64,000 bases of DNA from Eubacterium sp. (GTDB taxonomy: Bacteria; Bacillota; Clostridia; Oscillospirales; Acutalibacteraceae). Made by a program: the position numbers and the translations under genes. The notes under the pieces were generated by a model. That model ran no database searches, was not told the origin of the DNA, and saw nothing but the letters and a program-made list of their open reading frames with translations. The stretch covers positions 129,001 to 193,000 of the forward strand of contig JARHZA010000002.1 in NCBI GenBank assembly GCA_029258375.1. Reading direction: 5' to 3'. Below are positions 31,590 through 43,005 of this stretch, one piece after another (the first letter of the stretch is position 1; the number at the start of each line of letters is the position of its first letter).

Positions 31590-31641
31590 TTGACAAAAAT
31601 AGATTTTGGGTATAATATAACAGTGTTATATAACGGTGTTA
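31590..31641 (+). promoter_or_regulatory. Promoter and tandem palindromic operator of the TetR gene
   Basis: TTGACA (31590-31595) and TATAAT (31611-31616) are 15 bp apart. Immediately downstream are TAACAGTGTTA (31618-31628) and TAACGGTGTTA (31631-31641), two palindromes repeated every 13 bp. Their position at the likely transcription start suggests autorepression by the TetR protein encoded next. Confidence 0.65.
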
Positions 31642-31658
31642 TATATGGGAGTGGCAAG

Positions 31659-32276
31659 ATGATTGATTCAAAACAAAATACTCTTGATTCGATTAGAAAA
31701 TCAGCAATATGTGAATTTTCTGAAAAAGGGTTTAATTTAGCATCATTAAGAAATATTGTTAAAAATGCTGGTGTTACAACAGGTGCTTTTTATGGTTATT
31801 TCAAAAGCAAAGAAGAATTGTTTGAGTCACTTGTTAGTGATTCTTATAATTATGTTTTAAATAATTATCGTGAAACTCTTAATTCTTTTCAATCAATTCC
31901 TGAAGAATTGCAACCGGATTCTATGGGCGAAATGTCAACGCAATATATGATGAGTGTTTTACTTTATGCTTATGAACATTTAGATGAATTCAAACTATTA
32001 CTTTGTTGTTCAAAAGGAACAAGATTTGAGTTTATGATTGACGAAATGGTAGAAATTGAAACTAAGGCAACGCACGATTATATGGAAGTGCTTGAAAGGC
32101 TTGGACATCCGTCGCCAAAAATAGACGAACGACTTGAACATATTCTGATTACTGGAATGTTTAGTGCATTTTTTGAACTTATAATTCACAAAATGCCACT
32201 TGAGAATGCAAAAAAATATTTAACTGAATTGTGTGATTTTTATACAGCAGGTTGGATTAAGATTATGGAGCAGTAA
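31659..32276 (+). CDS. TetR/AcrR-family regulator beside the paired ABC transporters
   Basis: The 205-residue protein has a standard N-terminal helix-turn-helix (about 12-52; LASLRNIVKNAGVTTGAFYGYFKSKEELF) and a TetR-type effector domain. The frame is open from 31590, but ATG 31659 follows GGGAGTGG and starts MIDSKQN, the usual length before the helix-turn-helix. Two ABC half-transporter genes follow 120 bp later, the usual arrangement for control of an exporter. A different palindrome, shared with the heme genes, lies between them. Confidence 0.88.
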   Translation: MIDSKQNTLDSIRKSAICEFSEKGFNLASLRNIVKNAGVTTGAFYGYFKSKEELFESLVSDSYNYVLNNYRETLNSFQSIPEELQPDSMGEMSTQYMMSVLLYAYEHLDEFKLLLCCSKGTRFEFMIDEMVEIETKATHDYMEVLERLGHPSPKIDERLEHILITGMFSAFFELIIHKMPLENAKKYLTELCDFYTAGWIKIMEQ

Positions 32277-32297: not shown

Positions 32298-32317
32298 GAG
32301 TTAGCAACGGCTAACTC
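32298..32317. promoter_or_regulatory. Shared palindromic operator, site 1 (ABC pair)
   Basis: GAGTTAGC (32298-32305) and GCTAACTC (32310-32317) are perfect 8-bp arms with a 4-bp spacer, 80 bp before the first ABC gene. It has the same core, GTTAGC-N4-GCTAAC, as sites at 36003 and 37447. A separate hairpin (GAAAACG/CGTTTTC) lies downstream at 32340-32360. Confidence 0.7.
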
Positions 32318-32396: not shown

Positions 32397-34169
32397 TTGA
32401 AAAAGCAATCAATTTTATCAAGGTTGATGAGCTATGCAGGTAAGCATAGATATTTAACCTACTCTTCGTGGATACTATCATCAATAAGTGCGTTAATTGC
32501 TCTTGTTCCTTTTTGGTATATATGGAGAATTTTGAAGGAAGTTCTCGCAGTTGCTCCGAATTTTAGTAGTGCAGCAAATTTAGAGTATTATGGCTGGATG
32601 GCAGTTTTGTTTGCTGTTTTATCATTGTTAATTTACATTTGTGGACTTATGTGTTCTCATATTTCGGCGTTTCGTGTTGCATCAAATATTAGAATTGAAC
32701 TTGTAAATCACATTACAAAGTTGACACTTGGATTTGCTGATGATTTTGGCAGTGGTAAATTAAGAAAAATTATAAATGAATCAAGTGCAGCAACAGAAAC
32801 ATATCTTGCACACCAGTTGCCCGATAAAGCCGGTGCAATTGCAACTCCTATTGGTCTTTTAATCTGCCTTTTCGTTTTTGATTGGCGTCTTGGTCTTTTA
32901 AGCCTTATTCCTGTTGTTCTTGGTTTTTTAATTATGACTTCAATGACAGGTAAAAAAATGACAGAAAAAATGAAACAATACCAAGATGCGCTTGATGATA
33001 TGTCTAATGAAGCAGTTGAATATGTTAGAGGTATTCCTGTTGTTAAAACTTTTGGGCAAACAGTTTTTTCTTTTAAAAAGTTTAAAAATTCTATTGATCA
33101 ATATAGCAAGTGGGTTATTGCATATACAAAAGAACTTAGAAAACCTATGACATTTTATACTGCTGCAATAAACGGCGTTTTTGTATTTTTAATTGCAGGT
33201 GCTTTGTTGATTACAAAAAATGGTGTAACAAGTGAATTTATTCTTAATTTAATATTTTACATAATAATTACACCAGTTATTTCTTTAACATTAACGAAAA
33301 TTATGTTTATGAGCGAAGACCATATGATTGTTTCAGATGCAATTAGCAGAATTGATAGTGTGTTAGAGATTAAGCCTTTGGCGGAATCAAATTCACCACA
33401 AAAGCCAAAAAATACATCTGTTGAAATGGATAATGTAAGTTTTAGTTATGATGGCGAAAATGATGTTGTTAAAAATGTTTCGTTAAATGTTAAGCCAGGT
33501 CACATAGTTGCACTTGTTGGGCCTTCTGGTGGAGGCAAAACTACTATTGTAAATCTTATTGCAAGATTTTTTGATGCAAAAAGTGGAACTGTTAAAATTG
33601 GTGGAGTAGATGTTAAAGATATTTCAAAAGAAGAACTTATGAATATGGTATCTTTTGTATTCCAAAACAGCAAACTTATTAAAGGTTCAGTAATTGAAAA
33701 TGTTCGAATGGGTAATAAAAATGCTACTGATGATGAAGTTATTAAGGCTTTAAAATCTGCTCAGTGCTTAGATATTATTGAAAAATTGCCTCAAGGTTTA
33801 GATACAATTATTGGAACAGAGGGCACTTATTTATCTGGTGGCGAACAGCAAAGAATTGCTATTGCACGTGCAATACTTAAAAATTCACCAATTATTATAC
33901 TTGATGAGGCTACAGCGTTTGCCGATCCTGATAACGAAGCAAAAGTTCAATCTGCATTTAAAGAACTTGCAAAAGGCAAAACCGTTATTATGATTGCACA
34001 TCGTCTTTCAACGGTTGTTAATGCGGATTATATTTATGTTGTTTCAGATGGAGAAATAGTAGAATCTGGAAGTCCTAAAGAACTTTATTCAAACAACGGA
34101 TTGTTCTCAAAAATGTGGCAAGATTATCAAAAATCTGCTCAGTGGAAAGTTGCAAAGGAGGTTTTATAA
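32397..34169 (+). CDS. ABC half-transporter (membrane plus ATPase), first of a heterodimer
   Basis: The 590-residue protein has a six-span exporter-type membrane domain (about 18-310) and an ATPase domain (about 335-575) with GPSGGGKTT, LSGGEQQRIAIARAI, IIILDEATAFADPD and the IAHRLS switch. The residue after Walker B is Glu, as in a competent site. The closest group I can suggest is the YbtP/YbtQ-IrtAB-like pairs, exporter-fold proteins that import siderophores, or heme/porphyrin efflux pairs. TTG 32397 follows GGGGGAG. The next gene starts 2 nt after the stop. Confidence 0.85.
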   Translation: MKKQSILSRLMSYAGKHRYLTYSSWILSSISALIALVPFWYIWRILKEVLAVAPNFSSAANLEYYGWMAVLFAVLSLLIYICGLMCSHISAFRVASNIRIELVNHITKLTLGFADDFGSGKLRKIINESSAATETYLAHQLPDKAGAIATPIGLLICLFVFDWRLGLLSLIPVVLGFLIMTSMTGKKMTEKMKQYQDALDDMSNEAVEYVRGIPVVKTFGQTVFSFKKFKNSIDQYSKWVIAYTKELRKPMTFYTAAINGVFVFLIAGALLITKNGVTSEFILNLIFYIIITPVISLTLTKIMFMSEDHMIVSDAISRIDSVLEIKPLAESNSPQKPKNTSVEMDNVSFSYDGENDVVKNVSLNVKPGHIVALVGPSGGGKTTIVNLIARFFDAKSGTVKIGGVDVKDISKEELMNMVSFVFQNSKLIKGSVIENVRMGNKNATDDEVIKALKSAQCLDIIEKLPQGLDTIIGTEGTYLSGGEQQRIAIARAILKNSPIIILDEATAFADPDNEAKVQSAFKELAKGKTVIMIAHRLSTVVNADYIYVVSDGEIVESGSPKELYSNNGLFSKMWQDYQKSAQWKVAKEVL

Positions 34170-34171
34170 AT

Positions 34172-35902
34172 ATGATTCAAAAACTTCAAAAAAGATTTGC
34201 TTTATCAGAGCAAGGGGCAAAGGATCTTATTAAAGGTTGCCTTGCGTGTGCGCTTCAAAACATATCTTTTCTATTTCCAGTAACTTTACTTTATTATCTT
34301 GTTTCAGACCTTATGAACGGTGGCGTTGGTAAAGATAGAATAGCGTTTTATGTTGTTGGTTCTATTTTATCAGTGTGCTTTATTTTATTGGCAACATATA
34401 TTCAGTACAATGCAACTTACCTTGCAACTTATGTTGAAAGTGGAAAAAGAAGAATATCTGTTGCAGAGCAACTTAGAAAATTACCTTTGTCTTATTTTGG
34501 TAAAAAAGATTTAGCAGATTTAACAAGCACAATTATGGCAGATTGCACATTTTTAGAAACTGCATTTTCACACTTTATTCCTGAACTTTCAGGTTCAATT
34601 ATTTCAACTGTTCTTATTTCTATCAGTTTATTTTTCTTTGATTGGCGAATGGCATTGGCAGCATTTTGGGTTGTTCCAGTTTCATTTATAATTGTTATGT
34701 TAACTTCAAAAATTCAAGAAAAAGAAAACAATAGATCTATGAAAACAAAAATTGTTTGTGCAGATGGTATTCAAGAATGTATTGAAACAATGCAAGATTT
34801 AAAAGCAAACAATGCAGAAAAAGAATATTTAAAAGGATTAAATAAAAAAATTAAAGCAGTAGAAAAGCAGGCAATTAGAACAGAATTAAGGCTTGCAGTT
34901 TGTATGGTTTTGCCTGGTTTGGTTTTAAAACTCGGCATTGCAACTGTTGCACTTGTTGGCGTAACTCTTCTTGTAAAGGGGTCAATAAATGTTTTAACAC
35001 TGTTTATGTTTCTTCTTGTAGCATCACGTCTTTATGACCCAATGCAAGCAGCTTTAAATAATCTTGCAGCAATTATAGCAAGCAGAACAAATATTTCTCG
35101 TATGAATGAAATACTTTATCATCCGGTTCAGCAAGGCAAAGAAAACCTTTCAAATAATGGTTGTGATATAGTTTTTGAAAATGTAGGATTTTCATATAAT
35201 TCAAACGAAACAGTTTTAAATAACGTTTCTTTTTCAGCAAAACAAGGCGAAGTAACTGCACTTGTTGGACCTTCAGGTGGTGGCAAAACAACCGTTTCAC
35301 GCCTTGCATCACGATTTTGGGATGTTAATAAAGGTAAAATAACTGTTGGTGGTATGGATATATCAAAAGTTGATCCTGAAGTTCTTATGTCGCTCTATTC
35401 AATAGTTTTCCAAGATGTTACTTTGTTTAACAACAGTATTATGGAAAATATTCGTATAGGTAAAAAAGATGCAACAGATGAAGAAGTCTTGGCAGCTGCT
35501 CATCTTGCAAATTGTGATGAATTTGCAGAAAGGTTACCAGAAAAATGGCAAACGAATATTGGCGAAAACGGTTGTGAACTTTCTGGAGGGGAACGTCAAA
35601 GAATTTCTATTGCACGTGCATTCTTAAAAGATGCACCAATAATTTTGCTTGATGAGGCAACGGCAAGCCTTGATGTAGAAAACGAAACAACAATTCAGTC
35701 TGCTATATCTCGTTTGATTAAAAATAAAACAGTTTTAATTATTGCGCACCGTATGCGTACTGTTGTTGGTGCAGATAAAATTGTAGTGTTGTCTGATGGA
35801 TGTGTTGCTGAACAAGGTACTCCAGATGATTTATATAAACAAAATGGCATTTATAAACGTATGGTTGATATACAGTCTAACAGTCAAAACTGGACTATTT
35901 AA
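34172..35902 (+). CDS. ABC half-transporter (membrane plus ATPase), second of a heterodimer
   Basis: This 576-residue partner has the same layout: six spans (about 22-300), then an ATPase with GPSGGGKTT, LSGGERQRISIARAF, IILLDEATASLD and IAHRMR. The frame is open from 34115 inside the previous gene, but AAGGAGG before ATG 34172 fixes the start. Both ATPase sites look intact. The operator shared with the heme operon suggests the substrate is a siderophore, heme or a porphyrin; the direction of transport cannot be read from sequence. A strong terminator follows. Confidence 0.85.
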   Translation: MIQKLQKRFALSEQGAKDLIKGCLACALQNISFLFPVTLLYYLVSDLMNGGVGKDRIAFYVVGSILSVCFILLATYIQYNATYLATYVESGKRRISVAEQLRKLPLSYFGKKDLADLTSTIMADCTFLETAFSHFIPELSGSIISTVLISISLFFFDWRMALAAFWVVPVSFIIVMLTSKIQEKENNRSMKTKIVCADGIQECIETMQDLKANNAEKEYLKGLNKKIKAVEKQAIRTELRLAVCMVLPGLVLKLGIATVALVGVTLLVKGSINVLTLFMFLLVASRLYDPMQAALNNLAAIIASRTNISRMNEILYHPVQQGKENLSNNGCDIVFENVGFSYNSNETVLNNVSFSAKQGEVTALVGPSGGGKTTVSRLASRFWDVNKGKITVGGMDISKVDPEVLMSLYSIVFQDVTLFNNSIMENIRIGKKDATDEEVLAAAHLANCDEFAERLPEKWQTNIGENGCELSGGERQRISIARAFLKDAPIILLDEATASLDVENETTIQSAISRLIKNKTVLIIAHRMRTVVGADKIVVLSDGCVAEQGTPDDLYKQNGIYKRMVDIQSNSQNWTI

Positions 35903-35971: not shown

Positions 35972-36000
35972 TTGACAAATTACTAACATAGTGTTAACAT
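35972..36000 (+). promoter_or_regulatory. Promoter of the HMA-regulator unit
   Basis: TTGACA (35972-35977) and TAACAT (35995-36000) are 17 bp apart. The spacer holds TAACA (35984-35988) and TGTTA (35992-35996) three bases apart. That resembles the TetR tandem site at 31618, though with wider spacing. Transcription would start near 36007, inside the operator. Confidence 0.6.
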
Positions 36001-36002
36001 TT

Positions 36003-36030
36003 AATTAAGTTAGCAATCGCTAACTTAATT
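36003..36030. promoter_or_regulatory. Shared palindromic operator, site 2 (HMA-regulator)
   Basis: AATTAAGTTAGC (36003-36014) and GCTAACTTAATT (36019-36030) are perfect 12-bp arms around a 4-bp spacer. This is the longest of the three sites and overlaps the expected transcription start, a typical place for a repressor. It precedes the gene for the DtxR-like/NEAT regulator, so autoregulation is likely. Confidence 0.78.
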
Positions 36031-36070
36031 ATAATTTAGTATCTTAAAATAATATAAGGAGAGTATTGTT

Positions 36071-36319
36071 ATGGTAAAAATCACTTTAAAAGTTGAAGGT
36101 ATGGCTTGTGGAATGTGCGAATCGCACGTGAATGAAACTATAAGAAAAAATTTTGAAGTAAAAAAAGTTACATCATCACACAAAAAAGGTCTAACAGAAA
36201 TTATATCTGAAAATCCTTTAGATGAAGAAGCCGTTAAAAAAGCAGTTAACGAAACTGGTTATCAAGTATTATCAATAAACACAGAACCTTATGTAAAAAA
36301 AGGACTTTTCAGTCGTTAA
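36071..36319 (+). CDS. Small HMA-domain metal-binding protein
   Basis: The 82-residue protein is a heavy-metal-associated ferredoxin-like fold with the metal motif GMACGMCESHV (about 12-22), as in CopZ-type copper chaperones. The C-terminus ends in a basic GLFSR tail. No P-type ATPase is nearby. Instead it is the first gene after a palindromic operator and is followed 54 nt later by the heme-type regulator, so it may bind iron or another metal linked to heme handling. That role is inference. TAAGGAG precedes ATG 36071. Confidence 0.85.
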   Translation: MVKITLKVEGMACGMCESHVNETIRKNFEVKKVTSSHKKGLTEIISENPLDEEAVKKAVNETGYQVLSINTEPYVKKGLFSR

Positions 36320-36373: not shown

Positions 36374-37207
36374 ATGTCTAATGCATCAGATATTTTAAGG
36401 TTGCGAGTTCTAATTTGTTTTTTAAAATCGGATATTGATGATTGCACAGTAACTGGTATTTCAAGAGTTTTAAATGAAGAAAAATACACTGTAAGCAGAG
36501 CTATGGCAGCTCTTGAAAAAGATGATTACATAAATCGTGATGACGTTAGAAATCCTATTATTACTGAAAAAGGTTATAAAAAAGCAGTTGAGTATTCAGA
36601 AAAAATTGAAGTAATAATGAACTACTTACTTTGTAAAGATGTTGATATAGAGAGTGCAAAAAAAGATGCTTTTAATATAGCACTTTATTGTAGTGATAAA
36701 GCAATTGATGTTATAAGAAAAACTGAAGAACGAAATAGAATAAAGTATGAATTAAGGGAACAAAAACAATTTAGTGGTTCAACTTTATGCGAAAAATTGC
36801 GTGATGGATGTTATCGCATACCTTTTATAATTTGCAGAGAGCATATTGAAAATGGCAGTAATCTTTCTATGGCAAACGAAGGTTTTGAACATCCTTGTAA
36901 TATTTATGTTAAAAACGGAGTTGGCGAAATACAAATTCGCTCAAAACAAATAACAATGAAATCAAAGTTAGATGGTTCTGTTATGAGTGGAAGAGTTAAA
37001 AGTATTAAATATTTTGATTCCGGTAGATATGTTAGTGCAGAATCTAACGGGCAAGTGTTTTCTTTTCCAGCAAGTGCTTTAAACTTTTTAAATGTCGGTT
37101 TTGGTGAAGGTCAAGTTCTTCAAGGCAGTATTTCTTTAAAAATGGAATGTGCTTGTGGTAGTGTAAGTATGCCAGAATCAACTGCTCTTTTAACACTAAT
37201 CATATAA
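36374..37207 (+). CDS. DtxR-like winged-helix regulator fused to a NEAT-like (heme-binding) domain
   Basis: The 277-residue protein has no signal peptide. Residues 5-120 resemble DtxR/MntR repressors: a winged helix (about 24-68; TVSRAMAALEKDDYINRD) and dimerisation helices. The metal ligands are missing: the family CxxEH motif reads FNIALY (100-105) and the HRLLE motif reads SEKIE (75-79). Residues 144-277 read as a NEAT domain, with DGCYRIP, SMANEGFEHPCNIYVKNG (165-182) and the KQITMKS strand. The surface NEAT protein downstream has the matching DGIYEIP, SMAASSF and VVKDG. NEAT domains normally bind heme outside cells, so I infer a cytoplasmic heme-sensing regulator of the local palindromes. 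Confidence 0.78.
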   Translation: MSNASDILRLRVLICFLKSDIDDCTVTGISRVLNEEKYTVSRAMAALEKDDYINRDDVRNPIITEKGYKKAVEYSEKIEVIMNYLLCKDVDIESAKKDAFNIALYCSDKAIDVIRKTEERNRIKYELREQKQFSGSTLCEKLRDGCYRIPFIICREHIENGSNLSMANEGFEHPCNIYVKNGVGEIQIRSKQITMKSKLDGSVMSGRVKSIKYFDSGRYVSAESNGQVFSFPASALNFLNVGFGEGQVLQGSISLKMECACGSVSMPESTALLTLII

Positions 37208-37250
37208 TTTTAAAGTAAGTAATAACAAAAACTAAAGATATTTAAAAAAG

Positions 37251-37288
37251 TGGATAATAATGTTGCAACACTGCAACATTATTATCCA
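37251..37288. repeat. Perfect 17-bp inverted repeat after the regulator gene
   Basis: TGGATAATAATGTTGCA (37251-37267) and its exact complement (37272-37288) flank a 4-nt loop. There is no T-run, so it is not an ordinary terminator. Part of the arm, AATAATGTTGCA, recurs at 37335-37346. It may protect or process the transcript, or be a protein site. Confidence 0.7.
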
Positions 37289-37364
37289 TTGCTAATTTAT
37301 ATGAATTACTTATGAATACGGGCATATTCTTAAATAATGTTGCAAAAGTGCTACAACCTCGATA

Positions 37365-37394
37365 GTGACAACTTTAATGAACGGATGCTATAAT
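37365..37394 (+). promoter_or_regulatory. Promoter of the surface heme-uptake operon
   Basis: GTGACA (37365-37370) and TATAAT (37389-37394) are 18 bp apart, with TGC before the -10 (extended -10). Transcription would begin near 37401, about 208 nt before the NEAT gene, leaving a long leader with the hairpin at 37407 and the operator at 37447. Confidence 0.6.
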
Positions 37395-37446: not shown

Positions 37447-37462
37447 GTTAGCAAATGCTAAC
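37447..37462. promoter_or_regulatory. Shared palindromic operator, site 3 (heme operon)
   Basis: GTTAGC (37447-37452) and GCTAAC (37457-37462) are 6-bp arms with a 4-bp spacer, matching the cores at 32300 and 36009. It lies in the leader, 146 bp before the NEAT gene start and downstream of the predicted promoter, so it could act as a roadblock or serve a second promoter. Confidence 0.65.
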
Positions 37463-37608: not shown

Positions 37609-39390
37609 ATGACATTTGCAAAAAATAATTTCTTTAAGCGCAGTGTTTCTTTTATTTTAACCATTGTTATGGTTTTAAGTATGGGTGCGATAAGTGCTTT
37701 TGCACAGGACACAAAAGAAACAAAAAAATATAATGTTCCAATCAAATCTTTAACAACTGCTGCACCAATTAAACCGGTTAAAGATGCATTTGCTAAGGCT
37801 TTTGGTAATAGCGTAACAGTTACAGTCAATGAAGATGGAACAAAAACTGCAAGAATTAAAAATCATCACATGGTAATCAATTTCTTTGGAAAAAATTATG
37901 ATGCTAACGTTTCTTCAATTGTTGATGCAGATGAATCAACAGAAGGTGTACAAAAGCCAGTAATTCATTCAACAAAAGAAGAAGTTTACACAAACGGCAT
38001 TGGCTCATCAGAACAAGTTAAAATAACAGTGCCAGATGAGTTTTCTATTCCACTTAACCTTGATAAAAAAGGTTCTCAAAAAATTTCAATCACAGTTGAC
38101 TTTATGGATGCGATGAAGGGTGGTAAACCTTCACCAACAACAGTAACTCTAACTCTTGATACTGAAAATGTTAGTGTTGATACATCAGAACTTAAATCAC
38201 TTATTGATGAATATTCAAAAATTTCAAATGAAAACTATACTTCTGAAAGTTATGCAAAACTTCAAGCAGCAATAGAAAAGGCTAAAGGTGTTGTTGAAAA
38301 ACCTGAAAGTTTAGATAATGTAAGTTCAATGATTAAAGAATTAAAGGCTGCTAAAGATGGTCTTAAATATCAAGGTGCAGATTATAAAGCAGTTGATGAG
38401 GCACTTGCAAAAATTCCAGCAGACAGTTCAATTTACACAGAAGAATCTTGGGCTGCAGTAGAGGCTGCAAAAAATGCAGTAGTAAATGGTCTTGATAAAA
38501 CTCAACAAAATAAAGTTAATGCTTATGCTGCTGCAATAGAAAAAGCAGTTAAAGAACTTGTTCTTAAAGATGCTAATTACACAGAAGTTCAAAAAGCAAT
38601 AAATTCTGTACCACAAGATTTATCTAAATTTACAGATGAATCTGTTATGGTGCTTAAAGATGCAATTAAGGCAGTTCAATATGGTCTTAAAGCAGATAAA
38701 CAAAATGAAGTAAACGCAATGGCAGCTGCAATTACAGCAGCAGTTGCTGGTTTAAAAGAAAAAGATGATAATTCTTCAAACAACGATGAAGTAATTGATA
38801 TCAAAAATCTTAAAGACGGTATTTATGAAATTCCAGTTGCTCTTTGGAATGCAACACAAGATAAACCATCTATGGCAGCATCTTCATTTAATGGAACCGC
38901 AAGAATAGTTGTTAAAGATGGACAGAAAACAGTTTACATTTACACAAAACCAATGACTTTTGGTGCAATAACTGCAAGTTTACAAGAAATGAAAGTTCAG
39001 CAAGTAAATGGTAAATGGGTTGAGGCAAAAGTTGAAACAAAGAGCAAAGATGGTAATCCAAATTGTTTCTCTTTTGAACTTGATGAATTAAAAGAATATT
39101 TAACAGCAAAAGTTAATCCTCATGTAGATATGATGGGCAATCAAGATATTGATGCAAGATTAAAATTTAATCTTGGTGCAATTAAAATGATTTCTGATAA
39201 TGCAGATGAAAAACCACTTACACCTCCAGCAGAAAGTGGTAATAGTTCTGCAAATGGAATTAGCCCAAACACTGGCAATGATTCAAGCGTTGTTATTTGG
39301 TATGTACTTTTGATTACATCAGCAGGTGCTTTACTTACAATGCTTTCAATAAATAAACGTAAACCACGTGAAAACGAAAATAAACAATAA
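37609..39390 (+). CDS. Cell-wall-anchored NEAT-domain heme-binding protein with FIVAR-like repeats
   Basis: The 593-residue protein has a signal peptide (cut after AFA, residue 32), an unassigned beta-rich domain (about 40-190) and three FIVAR-like helical repeats (about 192-255, 256-321, 322-386). A NEAT domain (about 400-523; DGIYEIPVALWNATQDKPSMAASSF) and a sortase-type tail follow (SPNTG at 552-556, membrane span, basic end). The NEAT C-terminal strand normally carries YxxxY, whose first Tyr binds heme iron. Here that stretch reads HVDMMGNQDIDARLKF with no Tyr, so ligation may use His or Met, or be lost. It would capture heme at the surface and pass it to the Shp-like protein. GGGGGAC precedes ATG 37609. 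Confidence 0.85.
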   Translation: MTFAKNNFFKRSVSFILTIVMVLSMGAISAFAQDTKETKKYNVPIKSLTTAAPIKPVKDAFAKAFGNSVTVTVNEDGTKTARIKNHHMVINFFGKNYDANVSSIVDADESTEGVQKPVIHSTKEEVYTNGIGSSEQVKITVPDEFSIPLNLDKKGSQKISITVDFMDAMKGGKPSPTTVTLTLDTENVSVDTSELKSLIDEYSKISNENYTSESYAKLQAAIEKAKGVVEKPESLDNVSSMIKELKAAKDGLKYQGADYKAVDEALAKIPADSSIYTEESWAAVEAAKNAVVNGLDKTQQNKVNAYAAAIEKAVKELVLKDANYTEVQKAINSVPQDLSKFTDESVMVLKDAIKAVQYGLKADKQNEVNAMAAAITAAVAGLKEKDDNSSNNDEVIDIKNLKDGIYEIPVALWNATQDKPSMAASSFNGTARIVVKDGQKTVYIYTKPMTFGAITASLQEMKVQQVNGKWVEAKVETKSKDGNPNCFSFELDELKEYLTAKVNPHVDMMGNQDIDARLKFNLGAIKMISDNADEKPLTPPAESGNSSANGISPNTGNDSSVVIWYVLLITSAGALLTMLSINKRKPRENENKQ

Positions 39391-39427: not shown

Positions 39428-39467
39428 CAGTGACGTCTTCTTAACAATGGTTAAGAGGTCGTCACTG
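39428..39467 (+). other. Intercistronic hairpin between the NEAT and Shp-like genes
   Basis: CAGTGACG and CGTCACTG close a long stem, extended inward by CTTCTTAAC/GTTAAGAGG with small mismatches. The tail TTCTGCTTT is weakly T-rich. It may reduce expression of downstream genes or set an mRNA processing point. Confidence 0.6.
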
Positions 39468-39497
39468 TTCTGCTTTAAAAATTTAGAGGTGAATATA

Positions 39498-40277
39498 ATG
39501 ACTAAATCAAAAAAACAAATATTATCAATAATATGTATGGCTCTTGTTTTTGCCGTAATGATTCCATTTTCTGCTTTTGCAGGTGAATTAAAAGATGGTG
39601 CTTACTTGATTGGAAGAAAAACATCTTATGTAAATCCTGATACTGGCAAAACAGAAGACGGTGGCACAAATATAGCACTTGGCGAAAGTATGTGTTCAAG
39701 TATTATAGATGACCAAATGTTAGTTGAAAAATCAAATGGCAAAACTTATGTAACTATTGGCGTTGGTCTTATGTCTAACGTTGAAAATGTAAAAATAAAA
39801 GTTCAAGATAAAAATGGAAAATACCGTGATGCAAAAATTACAAAAACTGGCAGTTGTAAACGTGATGGCGACACTTGTAATCATTATCGTTTTGAAGTTG
39901 ATTCAGAAGATAAAAAAATTAGCCCAGTTCTTTTTGTAACTCCTATGGGAAGGGACGTTCAGTTCTTTATAATTCCTGATGTAAAATCTGCAAAGGCAGG
40001 AACAGGCAATTTCGTTAGTGAAATGGTTAAAGAAAAGTCAAAAGAAACTACTGCCCCTGCAGAAACTACAACAGAAACAACTACTGAACAAGCAACAGAA
40101 ACAACGGTTTTAGAAACTACTACCGAAGTTGTTGCTGAAACGGAAGAAACAAAATCAAATAGCAAAATACCTTTTATAATTGGTGGTGTTGTTGCAGTAG
40201 TTGTTATTGGCGCAGGTGTAGGCTATTTTTGTTTTTATAAAAAGAAAAAAGGCAAGGAGAAAATAGATGAAAATTAA
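39498..40277 (+). CDS. Membrane-anchored heme-binding protein, Shp-like
   Basis: The 259-residue protein has a signal peptide (cut after AFA, about 28) and an Shp-like heme domain (about 30-175; LKDGAYLIGRKTSYVNP, VTIGVGLMSNVENV, PVLFVTPMGRDVQFFIIPDVKS). A Thr/Glu-rich spacer and a C-terminal membrane span with a basic tail follow. In streptococci Shp uses two Met to hold heme and passes it from Shr to HtsA; candidate Met residues are present here but I cannot place the ligands. Two Cys (SCKRDGDTC) could form a disulfide. ATG 39498 follows GAGGTG. It overlaps the next gene by 11 nt. Confidence 0.8.
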   Translation: MTKSKKQILSIICMALVFAVMIPFSAFAGELKDGAYLIGRKTSYVNPDTGKTEDGGTNIALGESMCSSIIDDQMLVEKSNGKTYVTIGVGLMSNVENVKIKVQDKNGKYRDAKITKTGSCKRDGDTCNHYRFEVDSEDKKISPVLFVTPMGRDVQFFIIPDVKSAKAGTGNFVSEMVKEKSKETTAPAETTTETTTEQATETTVLETTTEVVAETEETKSNSKIPFIIGGVVAVVVIGAGVGYFCFYKKKKGKEKIDEN

Positions 40278-41175
40278 AAAGTTAGTCTCGCTTATTCTTG
40301 CGGTAGTAATTGTTTTATCGTTTGCAGGTTGTGTAAATCAGCACGCTAATAAAGAAAATAATGAAGGCACAAGTTTAAAAAATAAAGATTATCGCATTGC
40401 TGCAACATCTGTTGCAACTTGCGAGATTTTAGAGGCACTTGGTGTTGAAAGTGAACACGTTATCGGTATACCACATTCAGATGCGTATACAGTTCCAAAA
40501 GTATATGAAAATGCAAAGAGCCTTGGCAATCCAATGGCACCAGATATGGAAATATTAAAGTCATTAAATGCAGATATAGTTTTTACTCCTAACTCACTTG
40601 AAGGAGAATTGAAACAAAAATATGACGATATTGGCGTTAAAAGTTATTTCCTTAATTTAAAAAGTGTTGATGGAATGTATGCCTCAATTAAAGATATTGG
40701 AAATATGTTAGGAAAAACAGAAGAAGCAGATAAATTGGTTAAGGAATACGAGCAGTTTAAAGCAGAATTATCTGAAGAAAACAAAAACGAAAATCCACCA
40801 AAAGTTTTGATACTTATGGGACTTCCTGGCTCTTACGTTGTTGCAACAGAAAGTAGTTATGTTGGTAGCCTTGTTAAACTTGCAGGTGCAGAAAACGTTT
40901 ATGGCGACGGCGATGGTTCAGACTTTTTAAACGTAAATGTTGAAGATATGTTAAATAAAAAGCCAGATATAATTTTAAGAACTGCCCACGCTCTACCTGA
41001 GCAAGTTAAAATAATGTTTGAAGATGAATTTAAAACAAATGATATTTGGAAACATTTTGATGCTGTTAAAAATGGAAAGGTTTATGACCTTGATAACAAT
41101 AAATGTGGTATGAGTGCAACATTTAGATATAAAGATGCAATAAACGATTTAAAAACAGTATTATATGAAAAATAA
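40267..41175 (+). CDS. Heme ABC transporter substrate-binding lipoprotein, IsdE/HtsA-like
   Basis: The 302-residue lipoprotein (lipobox SFAGC, Cys about 22) has the two-lobed helical-backbone fold of cluster-III binding proteins (about 40-302). Two features match IsdE, which holds heme by one Met and one His: GNPMAPDMEIL in the N-lobe (Met about 98) and RTAHALPEQV in the C-lobe (His about 242). It should take heme from the Shp-like protein and deliver it to the permease encoded next. It starts inside the 3' end of the Shp-like gene (11-nt overlap), showing close coupling. Confidence 0.88.
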   Translation: MKIKKLVSLILAVVIVLSFAGCVNQHANKENNEGTSLKNKDYRIAATSVATCEILEALGVESEHVIGIPHSDAYTVPKVYENAKSLGNPMAPDMEILKSLNADIVFTPNSLEGELKQKYDDIGVKSYFLNLKSVDGMYASIKDIGNMLGKTEEADKLVKEYEQFKAELSEENKNENPPKVLILMGLPGSYVVATESSYVGSLVKLAGAENVYGDGDGSDFLNVNVEDMLNKKPDIILRTAHALPEQVKIMFEDEFKTNDIWKHFDAVKNGKVYDLDNNKCGMSATFRYKDAINDLKTVLYEK

Positions 41176-41246: not shown

Positions 41247-42239
41247 TTGATAAGTAAAAGAAAGAAAATTCTATCTTTTGTTATTACGGCAGCAGGTCTT
41301 TTTGTTCTGTTTTTGTTTGCGGTTAATACTGGTAGTTTAAAGGTTTCTGCCTCTGAACTTTTTAGAGGTTTGTTTATAGAATTTAATCAAGATGTAGCAA
41401 CAATATACGATTTGCGTTTTCCACGTATATTTATTGCTATGTTTGGTGGTGCTGCCACTGCTGTTTCAGGTGTTCTTTTGCAAGCAGTAATGAAAAATCC
41501 ACTTGCAGATCCTGGTATAATTGGCGTTAGCAGTGGTGCAAGTCTTACAGCAGTTTTGATTACTGCTTTTTTCCCATCATTATTTTTCTTTACACCTTTA
41601 TTTGCATTTCTTGGTGGTATGCTTGCGTTCTTTTTAGTTTATAGTTTGTCTTATAAAGGCGGTCTTTCTCCATTAAGAATTATTTTAGTTGGTGTTGCTG
41701 TTAATGCAATGTTTACAGGTTTAATGAGTGCATTCAATTCTGGAACAGGCAGTAATTTTTCAGGAGTTGCAAGCATAGTGAATGCAAATATTACTATGAA
41801 AACTTGGAACGATTTTAAAACCCTTTTAATATATGTTTTAATAGGTCTTATTGCCTCTATTTTTATATGCAATCAGTGTAATTTGTTAGCACTTGAAGAT
41901 AAAACAGCTCGCTCTTTGGGTATAAATGTTACTCGTAGTCGCATTATTATTTCAATTGTTGCAGTAATGCTTGCAAGTATTTCAACTGCTATAATTGGGC
42001 CAATTAGTTTTCTTGGTCTTATTGTTCCACATATTGCAAGACTTTTAGTTGGAAGTAACCACAAAATTCTTATTCCATACAGTATTCTTTTAGGTGCGTT
42101 TACTTTGCTCCTTGCAGACACAGTTGGCAGAACAATTGCACAACCTTATGAAATTTCTGCATCAATAATAATGTCTGTTATTGGTGGTCCATTCTTTATT
42201 ATTTTACTTAGGAGGTCTAAACAAAATTATGGCGGATAA
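41247..42239 (+). CDS. Heme ABC transporter permease, FecCD family (IsdF/HtsB-like)
   Basis: The 330-residue permease has about ten membrane spans. Family motifs include DLRFPRIFIAMFGGAATAVSGVLLQAVMKNPLADPGIIGVSSGASL, which I give here only as its ends at residues 48 and 92, and the later FLGLIVPHIARLLVG and LLADTVGR. It would import heme through a homodimer with the ATPase encoded next. TTG 41247 is preceded by GGGAGGTC. Its 3' end overlaps the ATPase start by 11 nt. Confidence 0.9.
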   Translation: MISKRKKILSFVITAAGLFVLFLFAVNTGSLKVSASELFRGLFIEFNQDVATIYDLRFPRIFIAMFGGAATAVSGVLLQAVMKNPLADPGIIGVSSGASLTAVLITAFFPSLFFFTPLFAFLGGMLAFFLVYSLSYKGGLSPLRIILVGVAVNAMFTGLMSAFNSGTGSNFSGVASIVNANITMKTWNDFKTLLIYVLIGLIASIFICNQCNLLALEDKTARSLGINVTRSRIIISIVAVMLASISTAIIGPISFLGLIVPHIARLLVGSNHKILIPYSILLGAFTLLLADTVGRTIAQPYEISASIIMSVIGGPFFIILLRRSKQNYGG

Positions 42240-43005
42240 TTTATTTTTAGTAAAAGACCTTTCTTTTTCTTATGGAAAACACGAAGTAATAAAGGGACTT
42301 GATTTAACTATACACGAAGGTACAGTAACAACACTTATAGGTGCAAACGGTTGTGGCAAAAGTACATTGTTTAATCTTATGACAAAAAATCTTAAACCAA
42401 ATTCAGGCACTATTGAACTAAATGGAAAAAATATTGCAGATGTTAAATTAAAAGACTTTGCAAAAAAGGTTGCTATTGTTCATCAATATAATACTGCTCC
42501 AGTTGATTTATCTGTTGAAAAACTTGTGTCTTATGGTAGGACACCTTATCATAAATTAGGTATGACTAATGATTCAAAAACAGATGAAGAAAAAGTGAAG
42601 TGGGCAATGGAAATTACACACACTTTAAAATTAAAAGATAAACCTGTTGCAGAACTTTCTGGTGGTCAAAAGCAACGTGTTTGGATTGCAATGGCACTTG
42701 CTCAAGATACAAAAATACTTTTTCTTGATGAGCCAACAACTTATTTAGATATAAGATATCAACTTCAAATATTAAAACTTATTCGTAAACTTAATCGTGA
42801 ATATGGCATAACAATTGTTATGGTTCTTCACGACGTAAATCAGTCTCTTTATTATAGTGACGAAATTGTTGCTATGAAAGACGGCAAAATGATTGCACAC
42901 GGTGAACCTGAAAAAATTATAACAAGTGAACTTGTAAAATCGGTTTATGATGTTGATCTTGATATTCAAAAGGTAGACGGAAAGCCATTCGTAATTCCTG
43001 TTTGA
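42229..43005 (+). CDS. Heme ABC transporter ATPase, FecE/HmuV-like
   Basis: The 258-residue ATPase has Walker A GANGCGKST, the Q-loop AIVHQYNTAP, the signature LSGGQKQRVWIAMALAQ, Walker B ILFLDEPTTYLD and the His switch MVLHDVNQ. The tyrosine in TTYLDIRYQ is typical of iron/cobalamin-type importers. The frame is open from 42181 within the permease gene, but AGGAGG fixes ATG 42229. It is the last gene of the surface heme operon and is followed by a terminator. Confidence 0.92.
   Translation: MADNLFLVKDLSFSYGKHEVIKGLDLTIHEGTVTTLIGANGCGKSTLFNLMTKNLKPNSGTIELNGKNIADVKLKDFAKKVAIVHQYNTAPVDLSVEKLVSYGRTPYHKLGMTNDSKTDEEKVKWAMEITHTLKLKDKPVAELSGGQKQRVWIAMALAQDTKILFLDEPTTYLDIRYQLQILKLIRKLNREYGITIVMVLHDVNQSLYYSDEIVAMKDGKMIAHGEPEKIITSELVKSVYDVDLDIQKVDGKPFVIPV

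Follow-up and report, generated by a model that had tools for sequence, protein, structure and literature searches.

The 64,000-nucleotide stretch of Eubacterium sp. DNA analyzed here (contig JARHZA010000002.1, positions 129,001 to 193,000 of the forward strand), referred to as the window, encodes a regulator of 277 amino acids in which a DtxR-type half is followed by a NEAT domain. The features of the region around it are listed below in window positions.

31590..32276, + strand: TetR-family regulator upstream of the ABC pair (PF00440, E 7.3e-14)
32300..32315, unstranded: box GTTAGCAACGGCTAAC upstream of the ABC exporter-type pair
32397..34169, + strand: ABC exporter-type half transporter A
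34115..35902, + strand: ABC exporter-type half transporter B (start uncertain)
35972..36000, + strand: promoter-like site upstream of the HMA-regulator genes (TTGACA-17-TAACAT, 10/12, consensus match only)
36009..36024, unstranded: box GTTAGCAATCGCTAAC, just downstream of the promoter-like site at 35972..36000 (13-bp arms in all, 36002-36031)
36071..36319, + strand: small protein with an HMA domain (82 aa; PF00403, E 1.8e-7), 54 nt ahead of the regulator gene
36374..37207, + strand: 277-aa NEAT-DtxR fusion regulator, from the ATG start through the stop codon (full-length relatives)
36374..36751, + strand: DtxR/MntR-type winged helix with dimerization helices, without the metal motif (residues 1-126)
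36788..37204, + strand: NEAT domain of the fusion regulator (residues about 139-277; profile and model)
36869..36871, + strand: codon of M166, the putative distal heme ligand (in SMAN, opening the short helix at 166-170)
37169..37171, + strand: codon of M266 (in SMPES; hairpin preceding the last strand), proposed proximal heme ligand
37249..37290, both strands: strong near-perfect stem in the gap between the regulator and NEAT genes (19 pairs, 17-bp perfect arms), terminator-like
37365..37394, + strand: promoter-like site upstream of the heme-uptake operon (GTGACA-18-TATAAT, 11/12, consensus match only)
37447..37462, unstranded: box GTTAGCAAATGCTAAC upstream of the NEAT-Shp-IsdE operon
37609..39390, + strand: secreted surface protein whose single NEAT domain spans residues 400-521 (PF05031, E 2.2e-18)
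39447..40277, + strand: Shp-type surface heme-binding protein (PF11545, E 3.5e-43)
40267..41175, + strand: IsdE heme-binding lipoprotein (TIGR03659, 364 bits, cut-off 298.65)
41247..42239, + strand: FecCD-type ABC permease (PF01032, E 6.7e-87)
42181..43005, + strand: ABC ATPase of the importer

The HMA gene and the regulator gene probably form one transcript. Promoter-like matches were not clearly enriched at the HMA-regulator site, where 16 were found versus 11.4 (sd 3.4) in shuffles.

The two halves of the fusion regulator

Sequence and predicted fold identify the N-terminal half as a winged helix with dimerization helices of the DtxR/MntR type, both being features of that family, from which the metal-binding motif is gone. 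The places of the metal site read SEKIE and KDAFNIALY in the fusion regulator, compared with RH and DACRIEH in a feo-linked DtxR of the same genome (L124:5311-5685) whose neighboring Feo genes were confirmed by Pfam. Residues 99-105 are AFNIALY where a CxxEH or ExxEH motif would be expected, and SEKIE occupies the place of the preceding-helix histidine (MntR H77 type). In all 44 fusion members residue 103 is other than E and residue 104 other than H; three (L129, L140, L141) have C or E at 100, and a single one (L042, at 77) has a histidine at 77 or 78. The placing of the N-terminal D/E ligands, sought in columns 6-11, is uncertain, the register of helix 1 against MntR being unsure. The winged helix itself is strongly conserved, with R42 in 40/44 and K37 in 35/44 members. 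The recognition helices of ordinary DtxR-type proteins also carry the K37 and R42 letters; by eye, the arginine is present in 31 of 40 rows, missing from eight and not visible in one, and valine replaces it in four box-bearing DtxR loci (L031, L107, L109 and L110). A stand-alone DtxR-like protein at L045:1477-1851 combines a fusion-like winged helix with a partial metal site, EACKLEH, and is possibly an intermediate form.

The C-terminal half is a NEAT domain by profile and by model, the predicted structure having the immunoglobulin-like fold of such domains. PF05031 scores the fusion regulator at 20.4 bits, below the Pfam gathering threshold of 32.8, and matches 26 of 30 fusion members at E <= 0.1 (best 1.2e-6); PRK11050 gives 33.6 bits against a curated cut-off of 153, and Fe_dep_repr_C an E of 0.22. 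Scores under the curated Pfam and NCBIfam cut-offs may be the reason that the protein carries no name. When the NEAT half was compared by hhalign with window-type surface NEATs, the first half aligned (E 1e-7) and the last strands were unreliable, and profile-profile alignment with the neighboring Shp proteins gave nothing usable.

The NEAT domains known so far are extracellular heme carriers that pass heme along. The fusion regulator, unlike the usual NEAT protein, is cytoplasmic as judged by hydropathy: no signal-peptide-like stretch was found in 30 fusion members, whose hydropathy maximum over the first 40 aa is 1.64, versus 2.27-2.56 for three secreted neighbors, and this rules out that it is a surface protein. 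An artefact of assembly or reading frame is ruled out by the recurrence of the full-length fusion in many independent genomes. An earlier note on this DNA had described the protein as a cytoplasmic fusion of a DtxR-type half without its metal motif and a NEAT half, and that description holds throughout: the fusion has full-length relatives in many genomes, profile and predicted fold support both domain assignments, and CxxEH, present in the feo-linked DtxR, is missing from 44/44 members. Structure prediction, used to look for a C-terminal fold unrelated to NEAT, returned the NEAT fold.

The fusion family and its genomic surroundings

The earlier note had also called for a search for the same fusion in other Clostridia, and it was found there. 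It occurs in 12/394 genomes of the window's own order (G000, G008, G072, G121, G134, G141, G252, G297, G344, G411, G428 and G433), with one more of the same 394 carrying a fusion fragment and ten more matched by the DtxR half only; in 16/392 genomes from the order to which the Lachnospiraceae relative L058 belongs, where one copy has an in-frame stop; and in 4/398 genomes drawn across the phylum, two of which were already counted. The 26 named fusion loci, some of which are cut or broken, include Faecalicatena, Diplocloster, Pseudoflavonifractor, Merdimmobilis and uncultured Lachnospiraceae and Clostridia. The fusion is a conserved family of over 40 sequences. A viral origin was ruled out by a scan of viral contigs, which gave 40 pattern matches and no relative of the fusion.

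Our alignment A3 holds the window protein and 22 of the 26 named loci, with L076, L077, L079 and L081 omitted as broken or cut; A4 adds seven unnamed relatives to A3, without the fragments L044, L055 and L056 and without copies of loci already named. In the 46-row set these are joined by 14 of the 16 loci from the search in the order of L058 and by two tandem paralogues (L134 and L138), leaving out L127 (same as L058), L142 (broken frame) and the surface protein L132:1-1288, and the 44-row set is the same without the two paralogues. L143-L145 are in neither set, and near-identical pairs, for example L060/L061, L065/L066 and L078/L080, were retained and counted separately. The paralogues are degenerate copies lying directly upstream of a fusion gene (L134:2339-3172 and L138:2350-3189, both on the minus strand); that of L134 is matched by the DtxR dimerization domain and has lost both methionines discussed below, and such tandem copies could possibly make a hetero-pair of regulators. 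Broken second copies with in-frame stops are present at L081:4835-5413 (G297 contig C10) and L056 (G134 contig C16), and G297 and G134 each have an intact one besides.

The association of the regulator with heme-uptake genes, which the earlier note had suggested, is supported both in the window and across the family. At least one of NEAT, Shp, IsdE or FecCD lies within 10 kb of the regulator in 16/26 named loci, and such genes, a CydDC-like ABC pair, or both, in 22/26; the remaining four (L071, L072, L073 and L077) run out <=725 bp downstream. These 10-kb counts are rough, the cleaning of open reading frames having missed the IsdE of L080 and the HMA gene of the window. The NEAT protein of L063 was found by our own iterated profile only, Pfam finding nothing in it, and the totals of 16 and 22 do not depend on it because L063 also has IsdE and FecCD. 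At L144, from the same phylum outside the class, a fusion gene that keeps both methionines shares 4 nt with the ATPase gene of a FecCD-type importer. Among the 394 genomes of the order, another NEAT protein (E 1e-5) is present in 11/12 with the fusion versus 6/382 without it (Fisher 1.9e-16, descent ignored), and in the twelfth fusion genome, G008, the only NEAT match is the fusion itself. No NEAT match at E 1e-4 was found in 7/26 genomes of the named loci, both Diplocloster genomes included.

By their scores the ABC pairs that we tested are CydDC-like and fall short of CydDC proper, lying below the NCBIfam equivalog cut-offs: the CydD-like proteins of L065, L092, L125 and L058 reach 395.9, 401.2, 414 and 405.8 bits against 435, and the CydC-like protein of L092 reaches 289.7 against 329. 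E. coli CydDC has been described as a heme transporter (PMC10374445). At L064, L065, L066, L070 and L079 a CydDC-like pair with a box upstream is the only detected partner of the regulator, and the genomes of L064-L066 have no NEAT match at E 1e-4. No ferrochelatase (PF00762) was found in the 18 genomes searched, of which 12 carry the fusion and 6 do not, and one was found in 8/14 control genomes. On this evidence, which covers PF00762 as the one heme route searched, heme, if used by these organisms, should come from outside.

The GTTAG-N6-CTAAC box

The window has exactly three copies of the palindrome GTTAGCN4GCTAAC, one each before the ABC pair, the HMA-regulator genes and the NEAT operon; the 1.7 Mb genome has eight, versus 0 for the reversed pattern. 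The looser 16-bp box GTTAG-N6-CTAAC is found 14 times in the window's genome versus three for the control, and the 415 kb of the 26 loci contain 52 copies versus three of the reversed pattern; 35 of those 52 lie <=1.5 kb from the regulator, spread over 21/26 loci. The earlier note had named the three palindromes as sites at which to test binding by the fusion, and this needs amending: they are not specific to it. In the window's own genome a box lies between the divergent DtxR and feoA genes of L124 and another between feoA and feoB, and further boxes precede a second secreted NEAT-type protein accompanied by a CydDC-like pair (L092), another CydDC-like pair (L125), a DUF3793-flavodoxin operon (L093) and an LCM-type methyltransferase (L091). 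Among 38 hand-picked genomes, the 24 without the fusion hold 108 boxes versus 34 for the control and the 14 with it 159 versus 21, with medians of 3 and 10.5 boxes per genome. A Feo or DtxR gene lies by the box in 12 of 23 stretches taken one each from genomes without the fusion, and the base profiles of 34 regulator-adjacent and 23 feo/DtxR-adjacent boxes are closely similar.

As judged from these sequence contexts, GTTAG-N6-CTAAC is an iron box: its presence at feoA, DtxR and feoB together with its enrichment in genomes without the fusion makes it very likely that ordinary DtxR reads it. A private operator of the fusion regulator is rejected on the same grounds, and because the box is common to feoAB and ordinary DtxR, the palindromes are no proof of binding by the fusion. 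The TetR-family protein of the window is an unlikely reader, relatives of that gene, the only TetR relatives covered by the comparison, being within 10 kb in 4/26 loci versus the box in 21/26.

Some boxes are centered in very long perfect palindromes with arms of 19-27 bp (L070:11025-11074, L081:4759-4798, L081:5713-5766 and L082:10969-11012), whose length far exceeds operator needs and two of which end in ATAACCCC...GGGGTTAT. Three boxes stand upstream of the DUF3793 and flavodoxin genes at L093:6412-7747 (window genome C3:431411 on); this pair also occurs <=10 kb from the regulator at L059, and next to boxes where the genome lacks the fusion, for example L098, and by this placement DUF3793 may belong to a clostridial iron-starvation regulon. 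The leucine-carboxyl-methyltransferase-like gene at L091:4459-5307 has a single perfect box just upstream.

Candidate heme ligands and the proposed mechanism

The YxxxY heme motif occurs after residue 250 in only 1/44 fusion members, and two methionines are the more likely ligands than the classical NEAT tyrosine. Conservation within the fusion NEAT domain is among the highest in the SMAN and HMPES segments: M166 (36/44) follows S165 (43/44) and opens a short helix, and M266 (36/44) lies in the hairpin that leads into the last strand. When the NEAT-only model is aligned by VIA-align, its last aligned residue pairs with IsdA 178, IsdH 654 and Shp 165, and counting 12 back from this end leads to IsdA Y166, IsdH Y642, Shp M153 and residue 265 of the fusion, next to M266. 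This register assumes no gap in the last 13 residues, and because VIA-align gives ranges only, a slip of one or two is possible. We take IsdA Y166 and IsdH Y642, residue numbers that appear in PDB titles, to be heme ligands. Shp M153 has been reported at a heme-ligand position, and the ChtD and ChtE domains studied also lack the tyrosines in a paper whose title claims heme binding (PMC5026354).

Because the count from the end lands on 265, beside M266, we propose a methionine pair like that of Shp, with H265 as an alternative where it is present. Both methionines are found in 35 of 46 rows, neither in eight, M166 only in one and M266 only in two. Fisher's test gives 1.5e-6 for this coupling with descent ignored, and on the tree each methionine changes six times, too few events for the independent-pairs sign test (median p 0.5). 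Their predicted position at or beside known NEAT/Shp ligand places, and their being mostly kept or lost together, suggests Shp-like bis-methionine heme binding. The loci L063 and L074 lack both methionines and are still heme-type, which means either that the ligand differs there or that heme binding is not essential. H265 is present in 34/44 members and H250 in 29/44, the window protein having S and Q at these places; Y213 (43/44) and C175 (32/44) are other possible ligands.

We consider it probable that the protein senses heme in the cytoplasm as a one-component regulator and acts at iron-box promoters, heme and DNA binding both being inferred. The earlier note's reading, in which heme sensing took the place of metal sensing, is supported in part. 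Heme imported by the adjacent NEAT-Shp-IsdE-FecCD system would most likely be bound by the NEAT domain of the regulator, the likeliest ligands being M166 and M266 in the manner of streptococcal Shp, and not a NEAT tyrosine. Heme would then alter the affinity of the dimer for the GTTAG-N6-CTAAC boxes that stand before the regulator gene itself, before the uptake operon and before the ABC transporter genes. The feoAB boxes are probably read also by the iron-sensing DtxR, and since the boxes are common to the proposed targets and to feoAB/DtxR, a single promoter would integrate iron and heme supply. The likeliest sign is that the heme-loaded form represses uptake in a feedback, as metal-loaded DtxR represses, although this is the weakest step of the proposal and we lean to feedback repression only slightly over heme-released repression.

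Release from the DNA by heme is the basis of one alternative, in which the fusion is an apo-repressor of heme efflux or uptake genes and heme induces the ABC pair, in the manner of PefR and HrtR. PefR, HrtR and HatR work in this way (PMC11442138), and the CydDC-like exporter-type pair is the only detected partner in L062, L064, L065, L066, L070 and L079, with a box 41-183 nt upstream of the pair in five of the six, L062 ending at the gene. However, uptake genes are among the partners in 16/26 loci, where induction by heme would lead to runaway uptake, and DtxR-type proteins bind DNA when loaded with metal. We regard this alternative as possible but doubtful.

It also has to be considered whether the feo-linked DtxR alone could read every box, as the similar profiles of fusion-adjacent and feo/DtxR-adjacent boxes would allow. 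DtxR would then control the heme operons, and the fusion would act elsewhere, or would buffer and hand on cytoplasmic heme with no regulatory role. This is in keeping with the occurrence of the box at feoAB and in genomes without the fusion, but the conservation of the winged helix (R42 40/44, K37 35/44) would be needless in a mere heme chaperone, and fusion genomes are richer in boxes (10.5 versus 3), a comparison that is confounded by their larger heme gene set; we think it unlikely. The regulator might instead control the heme locus with a NEAT domain that senses another tetrapyrrole or an iron chelate, or that is a protein-contact or dimerization module only. The near absence of YxxxY after residue 250 (1/44), the rows without either methionine (8/46), the several fusion loci with a CydDC-like pair as the only detected partner and the genomes without a NEAT match (7/26) would all fit such a domain. 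The high conservation of SMAN and HMPES (S165 43/44, M166 36/44, M266 36/44) and the independent identification of the window neighbors as heme-uptake genes, IsdE lying above its cut-off, argue against it, and we judge it quite improbable.

The proposed heme sensor-regulator differs from DtxR, MntR and IdeR, including Streptococcus MtsR, in the loss of CxxEH from 44/44 members, and whereas DtxR and IdeR carry an SH3-like domain at the C-terminus, the fusion has its NEAT domain there. In contrast to Shp and to the NEAT domains of IsdX1, IsdX2-N5, Hbp2-N2 and IsdA-C, it is cytoplasmic, has a DNA-binding module attached and lacks YxxxY. MtsR controls shr-shp-sia by iron (PMC6593403). The heme-responsive regulators named in two papers, as far as their available text goes, are Irr, PefR, HrtR, HbrL, HatR, HsmR, FhtR, HemP/HmuP and two-component systems, and the families reviewed there are MarR, TetR, Fur and LysR besides the two-component systems, and not DtxR (PMC11442138, PMC12670364). 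PefR and HsmR (MarR) and HrtR and HatR (TetR) are one-component heme-responsive proteins with the role proposed for the fusion, that of a soluble regulator linking the cytoplasmic heme pool to heme transport genes (PMC11442138, PMC12670364), but the proposed targets of the fusion include uptake genes, and in PefR the heme pocket is formed by helices of the regulator fold, while in the fusion it would be a separate, captured beta-sandwich domain. Iron and heme signals meet in one network, as proposed here, through DtxR and HrrSA of C. glutamicum (PMC12327846), and at a promoter through P. aeruginosa PhuS at the Fur site of prrF1 (PMC12670364); the present case differs in that heme would be read, by means of an added domain, by a protein related to the iron regulator itself.

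The earlier note knew of no described regulator of this build, and the literature agrees as far as it was covered: neither a NEAT-containing transcription regulator nor a heme-responsive DtxR-family regulator is described in the available text of the literature matches listed, among which subscription papers and preprints are scarcely represented. New in the present analysis are the methionine pair at or near known ligand places and the identity of the palindromes with the box common to feoAB and ordinary DtxR. Our evaluation tips in favor of a surface heme-relay NEAT domain having been captured as a cytosolic heme receptor on a DtxR module without a metal site, competing for or sharing the iron box with DtxR, which among the literature matches listed would be the first NEAT-based transcription factor and the first heme-reading regulator of the DtxR fold. 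If this is true, a domain swap turned a metal regulator into a heme regulator, and this would account for how heme-scavenging Clostridia that lack ferrochelatase might distinguish heme from free iron. The family of over 40 sequences offers ready comparisons, including natural members without the methionine pair.
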